Shown here one piece after another: positions 9,530-26,958 of a stretch of DNA of 29,511 nucleotides. Origin of the DNA: a virus; the IMG/VR virus record IMGVR_UViG_3300049489_000214, positions 1-29,511 of that record. One strand, given 5' to 3'. A program made the translations under genes and the position numbers. The number at the start of each line of letters is the position of its first letter. Position 1 is the first letter of the stretch. Under the pieces are notes generated by a model that was not told the origin of the DNA, ran no database searches, and worked only from the letters and a program-made list of their open reading frames with translations.

Positions 9530-11020
9530 TTAGTCAACAATCATTATCTGCGTACCATCTGGAGCAGTAACGATATTTCCTCCACTAGATTGTCCTATTC
9601 CAAGTGCAGATTGACCATTTCCAGCTAGTAAAGGAAGATTTCTCATTAGCCCTCTTAGTTTTTCTTCGGCTATTGATGGGGAATCGCTATACTGAGGAAT
9701 ACCAGCCATAATTTGTTCCATTTCTTTAGGACTCATATTTGCACCTAGTAAGGCATTTTGAACTGCAGTTCTCATTGCCGCAATATCTGATCTATATGAC
9801 TGTTGTTCTTGTGAGTTAAATCCCCAAGTTTCACCAAGTTTTCCGAGAGCAGTATTTCCGATTCCAGATTTTACATTTCCAGATTGAAGTTTAGTTAATG
9901 CATTGCCAGCTATAGTTGCGGCTGCTTCATACGCCATTTGTTTTTCTGTTTTTTTACCATCATTACTTCCCGAACCTATCTTCTCATAAATATCAGGGTT
10001 TTTAGTTCTAAACATAAAGTCTGCCATAGTTTTAGGAACACCTGTTTTCATAAAGTTTGGCGATAAGTTCTTAAATTGCTCTTCAAAAGCCTTTGATTCT
10101 TGGTCTAATCTTGTTTTCTCCTGTTCAGATGCCATCTTTAACTGTTCAATACCAGATTTTATTTGATTGATGTAGTCGTCAGCCTCGTTGTACGCATCGA
10201 TGAGTGAGTTCTCCATTTCAATATCATTTTGCTGTCTGGCGACTCGTATTTGCTTGATAAGGCTGTTTTTCTTGATTTCCTCTGCTTGGATAGCTTGGAT
10301 AGAATCACGCTCTGCCTTGCCAACTACAGCGTCAATCTCAGTGAGTTTATTAGCTTGTTCGTTCAACCTTTTGGCTGTTTCACTATTAAATTCACTATCG
10401 ATGTTTTCGGTAGCCTGTTGGAATGAACCCTCACCACGAGAATCAACTGTGCCTAGGTTTGCAAACGTCCTACCAGTTTGTGCTCTATTTTGGTTTCTGG
10501 TTTGAGCTGATAGTTTTTGAGCCTCTCCAAAATAGTCTCTAGTCTGTTGTTTTTGTCTATCTCCTGATGCTTGAATGTCTTTGACTCCCATTTCACTGTT
10601 AGTCTTGAACTGATTAAAGGCGTTTTCATACTCAGGAATTTGAGAGTCTAGTGCTTCATTAGCCAGGCCGAAGCTCTTTTTGATGTTAGCTTGTTTTTGA
10701 TCTAATCCTGCTTGTCGAGATTTTATTTGTTGATCTGCAATAGCTTGAAAACCAGCAAAAGGGTTAGGCTGTGTTGGCTGTGGCGTTGGTTTTGGCGTAA
10801 CCTGGGTAATAGGCTTAAACTTCGGCGTAGTTGTAGCAGGTTGTGGTGTAGAGGTGTAGTTTCCCTTTAGAGGAGGGTATTGTTTTGGAGCTACGACAGG
10901 TTTTGGAGTACTAGAAGGATAACTTGTAGTTTTTGGTGCTTGTGGCTGTGCGTATAAACTAGGAAACAACTGCTCGCTGACAGTCTTTTTTTTGAATACG
11001 TTTGGTGAGTAGTTAAACAT
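9530..11020 (-). CDS. Pro-rich, coiled-coil internal virion protein
   Basis: A 496-aa protein. Residues 1-90 are Pro/Thr/Gln-rich and disordered (PKPTPQPTQPNPFAGFQ). Residues about 95-320 are long charged helices with many Gln and Glu, predicted coiled coil. The last 150 residues are a mixed helical domain ending in DGTQIMIVD. No catalytic motif is seen. AGGAG lies four bases before the ATG. It lies between two other large proteins likely to be packaged in the virion, which in podoviruses is the place of internal core or ejection proteins. That role is inferred from context only. Confidence 0.6.
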   Translation of the reverse strand: MFNYSPNVFKKKTVSEQLFPSLYAQPQAPKTTSYPSSTPKPVVAPKQYPPLKGNYTSTPQPATTTPKFKPITQVTPKPTPQPTQPNPFAGFQAIADQQIKSRQAGLDQKQANIKKSFGLANEALDSQIPEYENAFNQFKTNSEMGVKDIQASGDRQKQQTRDYFGEAQKLSAQTRNQNRAQTGRTFANLGTVDSRGEGSFQQATENIDSEFNSETAKRLNEQANKLTEIDAVVGKAERDSIQAIQAEEIKKNSLIKQIRVARQQNDIEMENSLIDAYNEADDYINQIKSGIEQLKMASEQEKTRLDQESKAFEEQFKNLSPNFMKTGVPKTMADFMFRTKNPDIYEKIGSGSNDGKKTEKQMAYEAAATIAGNALTKLQSGNVKSGIGNTALGKLGETWGFNSQEQQSYRSDIAAMRTAVQNALLGANMSPKEMEQIMAGIPQYSDSPSIAEEKLRGLMRNLPLLAGNGQSALGIGQSSGGNIVTAPDGTQIMIVD

Positions 11021-13426
11021 TTATCTCCTGAATATATTACCTAGTAGTCTTTCGATTAAGCTCGGTTGTTGAGCCTGTGGTTTCAAAGTTGCAGATGGTG
11101 CTGATACTGGTGCTTGGAATAACGGCAAGTTTGAAGGGTTGGGGTTTTTAGGTCCAACTCCATTAGGGATAGTCTTTATTAAATCTCTAGCCGATTGGTT
11201 CAACGTCCCATTACTGCTAAAGTATTGAGGCTGTGACGATGCTTGAGGCTGATTTTGAGGTCTATTTTCAACTTTGCCCATTTGATCCAATGTAGACTGT
11301 TGACCTGTTTCGGCGTACCATTGAGCTTCTGTTTTACCCTTATTAAGATAGTCTTGCAGACTCTCACGAGGCTTGCTCGCTTCTGCCTGTCGTCTTTCCT
11401 CTTCTTTTTTGTCCTGAATAGCTTTGTATCTATCATTTGCACCAGATTGCAGGAAAGTACCACCAAAGACACTTTTTATCTTGTCGGCATCCTCATAAAA
11501 ATCAGGCTTGAATAGATCTAGTGATAACGCTCTTTCGGATGAAGCTCCAGGGTTTAAGAATTTTGAGTATAGATCTACAGAGCCATTCTTGAAAAATGGA
11601 TCTCTATTGTCGATCTTTGACACCATTTGCGACATAGAAGGTGCAGAGTCCATGAGTGAAGAAGCTTGTCCTGGGTTAGATGAAACACCGCTTACATCAC
11701 CTACAACACGTTTTACTGTAGGTGTAGAAGGTTTGAAGATACTTCCAAGGGATGATATAGCATCACTTTTTAGCTTGTTTATACCCTCACCTGCTTTACC
11801 GAATACGGAGTTTTTGTAAGCGTCAGTTTCAAATACATTAACGTCATTTAGTGGTCTTGATACTCCATTTTCAGAGGCATAAGCACTAGTCGTGTCTTTG
11901 GTGTTTCCACCTGCAACCAATTCTGACAAAGCATTTCCTGTAATCGGGGTTATAAATCGCTTGTTCAACTCTTCTGGGATAGCATCACTAATGTTTTCTA
12001 GTGTTTGACCTGCTACTTGCCTCAAAGATCCAAGTATTCCAGGTTTTGAAGGGTTAGAAGCAGATTCTGACAAGTTCATCTCTGGCAAGTTTCTCTTTAA
12101 CCCCTCACGAGCAATAGTTTGACCTAGTTCTGCACTAGCTCCAGTCTTATCTCCTGCTAGTGTTTCTCCAACTCCCAAAAATCCCTCTGGGGAGTTTCCA
12201 ATACTTAAACCTATACCAGCTTGAGAGGCTACTTTGCCAGCTTGATTAAACATGCTTCCAATAGTTTTCCTTGAGGGGCTCATTGGCTCTAACCCTGCAT
12301 TTTTTGCAAGAATACTAGCTGTTTCACCTGCTGATCTTTCGGCAAATTGTGGTTGTTGAGGTACTTGTTCCTGAGACTGCATAGATTGCATGGTCATGGG
12401 CTGTTCTGGCTGTTGAGTCTGCTCAAGCTTGCTAGACATGAGTACTTCTGGTTGAGTAAATCCACTAAACTCTTTCAAGTCTTTGAGTTGTCCATCCTGA
12501 CCGTAATACTCAACGTCAAGATGTTCGCCTGTTACGTTTCCTGTAGCTCCTGTCGTACCAACATATTGACCAGCTAGAAGAGTTTGACCCTCTTCAAAGT
12601 TTCCGAGATGAGATAAGTGAGATAATCTAACTCTCTCGCCTGTTGGAAGCTCAACGAGGACAGAGTTACCGTAAGGATTCCCGTCAGCTCTGTAGATTTG
12701 TATAACTCGAGAATCAACTGGCAAAGAAAAACTTTTATTCGTCAAGTTCTTGGTTCGCAAATCAGTACCGATATTTACATTCCCAGGTGTAGGCTCGATG
12801 GGGTTTATTTCTCCGTAAGCCTGGGTAACGTCTAAAGGAATACCAAAAATTTGACTCGTAAATCCTGTAATACCAGTCATTAAAGGATCGAAGTATCTGA
12901 CTGTTCCATCATCATACCCAACACCACCGCCAGGATATGAGCTATTGGGATATGAAACCCTACCGTCTTGAGTAGTAATCGCTCCTGTTTGGTCGTCCAT
13001 TCTCTCGCCGTTATTGAAAGTTGAAATACCATTAGATCGCTCAACTACATAAGGGACACCTGTTTGTTGAGATATTGCTTCCATTTGTTCTTGTGAGGGA
13101 GAGCTATATCCAGTAGTCTGACCGAGAAAATCAATAAAGTCATTGACACTTGTGTATTCTTCTTGTGGTTGTTCATCTGGAGGTTGCTCAAACTGAACCT
13201 CTTCAGGCAATAGTGATTGAGGTGGGGTATAGGCTGATGCATTGAAAGCACTATCACTCGTACCGAGTGGATTGCTAACTCGTCCAGGTAAGTACATCGG
13301 GGTATTAGATGATACATCTTGACCGACAAACATTCCCTGACCTGTATTGCGTTTTAGTAAAGACTCAAGTTCTTTGAGATACTCTTGGTATGATCTTGGT
13401 TGTTTTTGTTGTATTGGTGTTTTCAT
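11021..13426 (-). CDS. Large virion protein with degenerate M23 peptidase domain
   Basis: An 801-aa protein. Residues about 216-312 match an M23/LytM fold: NIGTDL (218-223), GNSVLVELPTGERVRLSHLS, then GQYVGTTGATGNVTGEHLDV (287-306). In active M23 enzymes zinc is held by His and Asp of HxGxD and by the last His of HxH. Here the first His is Asn (N218) and the final His is Asp (D304), while D222, H270, H273 and H302 remain. The domain may be inactive, bind glycan only, or hold metal differently. The rest (1-210 and 330-801) is low-complexity, Gln/Pro/Ser-rich and partly helical. It is probably a tail-associated lysin or ejection component. The ATG overlaps the TAA of the fiber-like gene (TAATG). 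Confidence 0.7.
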   Translation of the reverse strand: MKTPIQQKQPRSYQEYLKELESLLKRNTGQGMFVGQDVSSNTPMYLPGRVSNPLGTSDSAFNASAYTPPQSLLPEEVQFEQPPDEQPQEEYTSVNDFIDFLGQTTGYSSPSQEQMEAISQQTGVPYVVERSNGISTFNNGERMDDQTGAITTQDGRVSYPNSSYPGGGVGYDDGTVRYFDPLMTGITGFTSQIFGIPLDVTQAYGEINPIEPTPGNVNIGTDLRTKNLTNKSFSLPVDSRVIQIYRADGNPYGNSVLVELPTGERVRLSHLSHLGNFEEGQTLLAGQYVGTTGATGNVTGEHLDVEYYGQDGQLKDLKEFSGFTQPEVLMSSKLEQTQQPEQPMTMQSMQSQEQVPQQPQFAERSAGETASILAKNAGLEPMSPSRKTIGSMFNQAGKVASQAGIGLSIGNSPEGFLGVGETLAGDKTGASAELGQTIAREGLKRNLPEMNLSESASNPSKPGILGSLRQVAGQTLENISDAIPEELNKRFITPITGNALSELVAGGNTKDTTSAYASENGVSRPLNDVNVFETDAYKNSVFGKAGEGINKLKSDAISSLGSIFKPSTPTVKRVVGDVSGVSSNPGQASSLMDSAPSMSQMVSKIDNRDPFFKNGSVDLYSKFLNPGASSERALSLDLFKPDFYEDADKIKSVFGGTFLQSGANDRYKAIQDKKEEERRQAEASKPRESLQDYLNKGKTEAQWYAETGQQSTLDQMGKVENRPQNQPQASSQPQYFSSNGTLNQSARDLIKTIPNGVGPKNPNPSNLPLFQAPVSAPSATLKPQAQQPSLIERLLGNIFRR

Positions 13427-26155: not shown

Positions 26156-26476
26156 CTAACTCTTTAATTTTCTGACTATCTTTTTTAGTTTCATCCTGCT
26201 TGCCTCAAATTGTCTCAAGTCCACATTTGCTTTTCCAAGATTCCAATCTTCTACTCTGTGAGAGCTTACGTTTGATAGATGTATCCACCACTGAGTCTCA
26301 CCACCTGCTCCTTTGCGAAATTCAACAGTATCTACTAACGCACCACACATCATGTAATAGGAGGCTTCATAGGTGTTATGAGTCTTTCTATTGAGTTTTT
26401 TAACTGGCTCTCTAAACTCTTTGGGGGTAAGCAAGTAAGTCAATTGTTTAAGTAATTTTATTAATTTTTTTCTCAT
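26156..26476 (-). CDS. Basic hypothetical protein (106 aa)
   Basis: A 106-aa basic protein starting MRKKLIKLLKQLTYLLTPKE. An ORF in this frame extends to 26587, but that part overlaps a tRNA-like element, so I place the start at 26474-26476; 26491 is an alternative. No SD is seen. Residues about 40-80 (TYEASYYMMCGALVDTVEFR, GGETQWWIHLSNVSSH) form a compact alpha/beta unit and the ends are Lys/Arg-rich. It may bind nucleic acid by charge. The family is unknown. Confidence 0.5.
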   Translation of the reverse strand: MRKKLIKLLKQLTYLLTPKEFREPVKKLNRKTHNTYEASYYMMCGALVDTVEFRKGAGGETQWWIHLSNVSSHRVEDWNLGKANVDLRQFEASRMKLKKIVRKLKS

Positions 26477-26494
26477 ATATCTTAAATACATGCA

Positions 26495-26616
26495 ACTGAG
26501 GGCAAGGACTTGCACCTTACATGGCATCGTCATCATCTCGTCAGATTTTGCCTTATCCTGTTCTACGGGTTCCGAATGCTCCCGCATTTTAGCGTCTACT
26601 GTTCCGCCACCTCATG
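26495..26616 (-). tRNA. tRNA-Leu-like element, expanded and non-canonical
   Basis: On the minus strand GTGGCGGAACAGTAGACGC (26610-26592) is nearly identical to the position 8-25 region of bacterial tRNA-Leu, including the GCG/CGC D stem. At the other end TAAGG-TGCAAGT-CCTTG (about 26518-26502) forms a T-arm with TGC in place of TTC. TGAGG (26614-26610) can pair with the CCTCA (about 26501-26497) that follows it. But the part between D arm and T arm is about 75 nt against about 36 in normal tRNA-Leu, and shows no normal seven-base anticodon loop. It can form a CGGG/CCCG hairpin and a GGCA/TGCC hairpin instead. It could carry a small insertion or intron, or be a decayed or repurposed tRNA. The amino acid and anticodon cannot be stated. 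Confidence 0.45.
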
Positions 26617-26625
26617 TGTATATAC

Positions 26626-26958
26626 TTACTCCTCCAGTTCTTTTAATAAATAATTTTCTACTGCTTCTAGTCCTTGTTCAGCGTAGAGGATGGAGATTTC
26701 TTGTAGTTCTACTTTCCATCTAATTTGAGAACCATATACTTCTGGGAATAAAATTATTAATGCTTCTTTACGGAGGATGTCTGCTATCCCATAAGCGTCA
26801 CATAACTTGACCATCCCACCAGAGTCATAATCAGATACCATTGTCATATCCCAAACTTCAGGCTTTATTCCTCGGTTACTTATCCACCAGTGGTCACTCT
26901 CACTCATCACACCCTTTGAGTGGAGGAGTTTGCAGAGAGGGAGGGAAAAATAATTCAT
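26626..26958 (-). CDS. Conserved-looking phage hypothetical protein (110 aa)
   Basis: A 110-aa protein, MNYFSLPLCKLLHSKGVMSE at the start. The pattern LPLxKLLHxKG, SDHWWI, then a helix pair ending LYAEQGLEAVENYLLKELEE is one I associate with small phage proteins of unknown role. There is no enzyme motif or membrane segment. The ATG overlaps the TGA of the previous gene (ATGA) inside a 28-bp repeat that also provides AAGGA. Confidence 0.6.
   Translation of the reverse strand: MNYFSLPLCKLLHSKGVMSESDHWWISNRGIKPEVWDMTMVSDYDSGGMVKLCDAYGIADILRKEALIILFPEVYGSQIRWKVELQEISILYAEQGLEAVENYLLKELEE

Follow-up and report, generated by a model that had tools for sequence, protein, structure and literature searches.

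A phage RNA family with the upper half of a leucine tRNA and an exchangeable insert in place of the anticodon arm

Background

The closest described relatives of the element reported here are the leucine tRNAs themselves (RF00005, including phage tRNA-Leu), with which it shares the length of the acceptor stem, the U8/A14/A15:U48 core and the D and T arms, and the family to which it belongs is clearly derived from tRNA-Leu. The family differs from tRNA-Leu in having an insert of 30-240 nt and no anticodon arm, in a T stem that is usually 6 bp and, in the subtype of the element that is our starting point, in that A73 and CCA are not retained. A similar arrangement is found in tmRNA, which has tRNA-like ends and an anticodon domain replaced by other RNA, whereas the inserts of the family can be as short as 30 nt. 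The stable RNAs C and D of phage T4 (rnaC, rnaD) resemble the family as small stable phage RNAs that lie beside tRNA genes, and rnaC has a T-arm-like hairpin; they were considered as members and rejected, as they have no leucine D block and no match to the covariance model R1 described below (L044).

Other systems share single aspects with the family. The tRNA-Other / sRNA-Other of Bacillus cereus is bacterial and carries a Trp anticodon, and no exchangeable insert has been described for it (PMC3399842). The phage tRNAs associated with theta ribozymes show unusual RNA processing at tRNA loci, including undetermined isotypes (PMC10879173), however these are tRNAs with an adjacent ribozyme, while the only ribozyme seen beside the family is a type II hammerhead identified by Rfam (42.7 bits; L027, 3676-3746, minus) directly upstream of an element. 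ROOL, GOLLD and drum RNAs are phage noncoding RNAs found near tRNA genes, and ROOL adjoins members of the family in L111 (667-1248) and in Brochothrix phage ADU4 (L045), where ROOL and drum RNAs (1489-2052 and 2224-2339) adjoin the elements and a second member (2795-2917) lies just upstream of the first. These RNAs have other structures with no tRNA scaffold, and Rfam assigns no family element to them. Finally, tRNA has been used as a chassis for foreign RNA in engineered aptamer-tagged and tRNA-scaffold RNAs (PMC7590224), and the family would be the natural equivalent of these.

A search of 5.4 million open-access papers brought up no account of a family of this kind, which is apparently undescribed to date, although priority is not certain. 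Phage tRNA clusters contain non-decoding tRNA derivatives that are usually overlooked or dismissed as decayed genes. The family has the laboratory phages SPP1 and phi3T among its carriers and a variable part that is traded like an effector cassette, and if the insert is functional it may bear on the old question of the stable phage RNAs that lie beside tRNA genes.

Anatomy of the element

The window, that is the whole stretch of 29,511 nt that was analysed (IMG/VR record IMGVR_UViG_3300049489_000214), is a siphovirus-like fragment whose late genes lie on the same strand as the element. The element itself occupies 26494..26616 on the minus strand, and from 26616 to 26494 it reads CATGAGG-TG-GCGGAACAGTAGACGC-T-(70 nt)-GTAAGGTGCAAGTCCTTGC-CCTCAGT. 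The two acceptor strands, CATGAGG (26610..26616, minus) and CCTCAGT (26495..26501, minus), were placed by sequence and by the alignment to R1, and form five of the seven pairs (TGAGG/CCTCA) with two mismatches; CCA and A73 are lacking, position 73 being T. The TG represents positions 8-9 and leads into the tRNA-Leu-type D arm GCGGAACAGTAGACGC (26592..26607, minus), placed by sequence and by the invariant columns of the family alignment, which has a 3-bp stem, GCG-GAACAGTAGA-CGC, and retains the tRNA core bases U8, A14, A15 and G19. The T arm GTAAGG-TGCAAGT-CCTTGC (26502..26520, minus), again placed by sequence and R1, has a stem of 6 bp rather than 5, as is typical of the subtype. A first-pass annotation made from the letters alone had named the leucine D block, the GCG/CGC stem, the TGCAAGT loop and the TGAGG/CCTCA pairing, and all of these are present.

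What lies between the arms is 71 nt long, compared with 30-36 nt, mostly 31-33, in 32 ordinary tRNA-Leu controls, in line with the earlier estimate of about twice the normal length. It starts with T at position 26 (26591..26591, minus), a hallmark of the family that is found in 101 of 110 elements, and continues as a hypervariable insert, or cargo, in place of the anticodon arm (26521..26590, minus). Folding gives a first hairpin in the insert, TGCGGG-AGCATTCGGAA-CCCGTA (26564..26586, minus), with a loop of 11 nt as against the 7 nt of an anticodon loop. This additional hairpin precedes a helix of the variable-arm type, GGCA...TGCC (26523..26552, minus), which has TAA before it and AT and the T stem after it, as in the rest of the family, and which at only 4 bp is shorter than in most members. 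The fold predicted by RNAfold for the whole element has two further hairpins between the D arm and the T arm, which bears out the earlier description of two hairpins where a normal anticodon arm would be. The folding energy is not significant (z = -1.0) and gives no support taken alone.

Detection of the element

Standard searches do not report the element: ARAGORN finds no tRNA and no tmRNA in it, and Rfam gives nothing at its gathering score and, with the cut-off relaxed to E<=10, still no match to tRNA. ARAGORN and the tRNA and group I models, which are among the checks proposed with the first-pass annotation, gave no match. The tRNA model RF00005 passes its gathering score in one relative, L031 (36.1 bits), and identity with tmRNA was rejected, as neither ARAGORN nor Rfam reports a tmRNA in the window or the relatives tested.

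The covariance model R1 was trained on 27 other phages, without the window and with the inserts collapsed; it has a single match in the 29.5-kb window, exactly at 26494-26616 on the minus strand, with 39.7 bits and E 4.8e-9, R1 E-values being rough as they come from a short calibration. Most members outside the training set of R1 are also found by it, and ordinary tRNA-Leu genes mostly score lower. Of 20,000 random stretches drawn from this genome, only 56 supply, given the D block, a T arm and acceptor partner as good as those of the element. The element also has T26, U48 and a helix 2 nt ahead of the T stem, as well as the acceptor (5/7 pairs), D and T arms with the tRNA tertiary positions, and it is a member of a large phage RNA family with the upper half of tRNA-Leu.

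A large family in phages

The family was collected by probing IMG/VR with the D block as a search pattern, the first genome-wide pattern, in which a specific T arm was required, having been too strict and having returned nothing. The probe GGYGGAACAGTAGACGC brought up ordinary phage tRNA-Leu genes, chance matches in coding sequence and a group of equally odd elements, and broader D-block probes gave further ones, the matches to GTGGCGGAANNGGTAGACGCT being a lower bound. When a T arm was required together with six or more of the seven acceptor pairs, there remained, among the matches listed, at least about 110 elements without a canonical anticodon arm and at least 39 with one. With named phages added the set comprises at least 147 elements with at least 130 distinct inserts, a handful of the longest entries being possible chance pairings or tandem cases; the true diversity is underestimated, because members were gathered by exact D-block patterns.

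The family is phage-associated and nearly missing from bacterial genomes outside prophages. The D-block pattern has 24 loci in IMG/VR and, among its five occurrences in 84,980 bacterial and archaeal genomes, one real element, which lies in a Flavobacterium genome and is identical to that of an IMG/VR contig. Named carriers are Bacillus phages SPP1 and phi3T; Geobacillus phage PK3.5 and D6E; Brochothrix phages ADU4 and BtpYZU01; Lactobacillus phages 8014-B2 and Bacchae; H1-Guo; R24.2; Listeria phage LP-LmcIH1-8 and Enterococcus phage phiSHEF16, and in none of the records of these named phages is the element annotated as an RNA. The hosts of the carriers belong to Bacillota and Bacteroidota at least, and there are two subtypes, one with a 6-bp T stem and a TGCAAAT loop (the window and Bacillota phages) and one with a 5-bp stem and a TTCRAAT loop (Flavobacterium and similar). 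Several phages hold more than one element, with a common acceptor and differing inserts, and there are five copies in L270.

Conservation of the fold and placement of the insert

The elbow and the acceptor are the sole parts common to all members. In the family alignment both sides have changed in six of the seven acceptor pairs and in four of the six T-stem pairs; the covariation lies above all 500 shuffles and is lost when the pairing partners are shifted. The 100% pairing of the acceptor is not independent evidence, because pairing was the selection filter, while the diversity of pair types is independent of it. Pairing extends over 7 positions, the length of a tRNA acceptor, and then stops; -1:73 is mildly raised, and beyond it pairing is at chance level.

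These results bear on the possibility that the element is a decayed tRNA gene or a chance resemblance, for which one can point to the two acceptor mismatches and the z of only -1.0 in the window copy. Set against it are the independent R1 match, the covariation of the stems and the recurrence of the architecture in at least 130 distinct elements, so that this explanation is very improbable for the window and is already contradicted for the family as a whole. The first-pass annotation had offered three readings, a repurposed tRNA mimic, a decayed gene and an intron-like insertion, of which the first gains support from the large covarying family and the R1 match. Decay is contradicted, because there are compensatory changes in the acceptor and T stems, the kind of change that the annotation had suggested looking for, and because the cargo is kept at 95-100% between unrelated phages (see below). 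The window copy, with its two mismatches, could still be a diverged or partly impaired member.

The insert lies 3' of the D arm and usually takes the form of an enlarged variable arm that closes 2 nt before the T stem, at the site of the variable arm of class II tRNAs. A helix of at least 6 bp exactly 2 nt ahead of the T stem is found in 48% of inserts as against 16% of shuffles; this shuffle comparison of the inserts is the fair test, because the helix was a selected feature of alignment A2. The excess of insert-closing helices peaks at offset 2 and falls to chance level a few nucleotides away. The two nucleotides between this helix and the T stem are usually AT, and U48 is present in 106 of 110 elements.

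Decoding, charging and introns

A canonical anticodon arm, with a 5-bp stem and a 7-nt loop after position 26, is absent from the window element and about 110 relatives. CCA is encoded in one of 110 elements, whereas 19 of 32 ordinary tRNA-Leu controls encode it; for A73 the figures are 32 of 66 elements of the window's subtype and 31 of 32 controls. Judged by its sequence, an element of the window type would be expected neither to decode nor to be charged. In the subtype with a 5-bp T stem charging is possible, because A73 and C74 are mostly retained there. A near-ordinary tRNA with a leucine body and a UUG anticodon, called tRNA-Gln by ARAGORN, was seen in L037 (2222-2309, minus).

A functional tRNA-Leu with an unrecognised intron would account for the tRNA-Leu-like body and for the position of the extra length between the D and T arms. 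If the anticodon stem were split and hidden, bases 27-31 should have a complementary partner in the insert, and they do so in 30 of 106 elements as against 26.7 in shuffles. An intron in the anticodon loop was rejected, and the intron-like insertion of the first-pass annotation is unsupported, because such flanking stem halves are no commoner than chance. A group I intron, a riboswitch or another Rfam family inside the element was rejected also, there being no Rfam match, and no ribozyme or group I match lies inside any insert tested. As A73 and CCA are lost as well, an intron-containing tRNA is the least credible of the explanations and can hardly be maintained.

Exchange of inserts between phages

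The cargo of the window element is unrelated to every other cargo found, while elsewhere in the family the same cargo occurs in different surroundings. In six pairs of loci (L005/L027, L032/L033, L045/L301, L048/L298, L141/L295 and L074/L116) it is 95-100% identical although the 100-nt flanks stand at chance identity, and the conserved shared inserts are up to 162 nt long. The phages in such a pair are unrelated and have the same host, as in two families of Lactobacillus plantarum phages, a 128-kb and a 35-kb Brochothrix phage, and the thermophile pair of D6E and Geobacillus PK3.5. The acceptors of L005 and L027 differ in sequence and are both fully paired around the common insert, and L085 and L155, whose acceptors differ, have a more diverged insert in common (77% over 60 nt).

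The converse is seen in L072/L108, L074/L084 and L005/D6E, where flanks, acceptor and arms are alike and the inserts unrelated. L072 and L108 have 400 nt of upstream flank at 95.5% identity and the same acceptor and arms around unrelated inserts, and the downstream flank of L074/L144 is 98% identical to that of L084/L151 while the inserts differ. L005 has the flanks and acceptor of D6E and the insert and T loop of L027, the mosaic to be expected if the conserved D and T arms are where recombination takes place. Going by these comparisons, the cargo is swapped as a unit between phages; the high identity of common inserts could reflect recent transfer instead of strong constraint. The family itself, the swapping of cargo and the constant placement of the insert at the variable arm all go beyond what the first-pass annotation had noticed.

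Searches for the insert in other contexts were negative in the cases covered: the one insert tested was not found without its scaffold on plasmids, long antisense matches of inserts to their own phage showed no excess over shuffles in four phage genomes, and the insert of the L051 element has only short A-rich matches, at chance level, to its bacterial genome. A second T-arm-like hairpin is present within some inserts (L148, L005/L027), and that of L148 seemingly contains a nested tRNA-like unit.

A possible role for the scaffold and its cargo

On balance, we think that these elements are probably tRNA-scaffolded small RNAs, in which the tRNA fold would serve for processing and stability and the cargo would be the working part, probably directed at the host. 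What would serve as the scaffold is the upper part of the leucine tRNA, made up of the acceptor stem, the two arms D and T and the contacts of the elbow; the anticodon arm is missing and a hypervariable RNA insert is mounted, usually as an enlarged variable arm. Enzymes of the host that mature tRNA might cut the phage transcript, with RNase P acting on the 5' end and, on the 3' end, RNase Z or exonucleases, and the scaffold would thereby allow a stable small RNA to be released. The 5' processing site of the window element is less certain than that of most members, because only 5 of its 7 acceptor pairs are formed. The exposed insert would then probably act on a target specific to the host or to a competitor, for example a host regulator or a component of defence. 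Were the insert functional, this would be a general phage route to stable, host-directed RNAs via host tRNA maturation. Rather more tentatively, the family may represent widespread tRNA-scaffolded RNA effectors, host-directed cassettes that are recombined via the D and T arms among unrelated phages in phage-host and phage-phage conflict.

The main rival of the cargo reading is that the scaffold itself is functional, as a decoy without an anticodon that binds or baits enzymes of the host recognising the elbow or acceptor, such as RNase P, toxins acting on the tRNA acceptor or defence nucleases, and that the insert merely blocks entry into the ribosome or varies in order to evade recognition. 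This would explain why nothing but the elbow and acceptor is shared by all members, and it fits with phage tRNAs in which the anticodon arm has simply been deleted. At least 23 such cases were seen (L004 at 10447-10504 and 11557-11617, both minus, L176, L215, L222, L248, L290 and others), with near-perfect acceptor, D and T arms and a linker of 8-13 nt instead of the anticodon arm, and in a Leu-like element of L041 (1040-1126, minus) the anticodon stem GTATA/TATAC is capped with a GAAA tetraloop. However, a pure decoy would need neither inserts of up to 162 nt that are kept at 95-100% between unrelated phages nor a variable-arm helix that is retained above chance, and we regard this explanation as unlikely, albeit less so than those based on decay or an intron.

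Genomic context

In the window the distance from the element to TerL, which lies downstream, is ~2.1 kb, and the element has a short ORF on either side, both on the minus strand, one of which (26626..26958) ends 10 nt before the element, while the other (26156..26476) has a possible ATG 18 nt past it. Neither is conserved in the terminase relatives: both ORFs are without a tblastn match in 31 terminase-relative loci, some 13 of which have enough upstream sequence, while TerL is matched in 31 of 31, and an earlier protein search for relatives of the downstream ORF found none. The suggestion that the 37 codons upstream of 26476 might show the region to be coding accordingly fell away, and a coding explanation was rejected since the overlapping ORF has no relatives in these searches. 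Among the ~13 relatives with sufficient upstream sequence the element is present only in L324, ~2.0 kb upstream of TerL and with another insert.

Position might also suggest a processing or regulatory site acting in cis: the element would be a tRNA-like leader, and its cleavage by RNase P or RNase Z would separate adjacent phage mRNAs or make them more stable, for instance at an early/late junction. In several temperate phages the element lies between a late regulator and the small terminase gene, in SPP1 it lies between morphogenesis genes 9 and 11, and its place upstream of TerL in the window would be compatible with these. Against such a site, an ordinary tRNA is present no further than 1.5 kb away in 40 of 130 members, many members are in tRNA clusters and not before fixed genes, L270 has its five copies, and neither the swapping nor the conservation of inserts is required of a processing site; we therefore hold a role in cis to be improbable. 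Further RNAs border the element in a Listeria phage (L294), where similarity to the known sRNA rliG (RF02415; 1838-2036) reaches up to the 5' end of the element and stops there; downstream lies an mcrA RNA (2275-2324).
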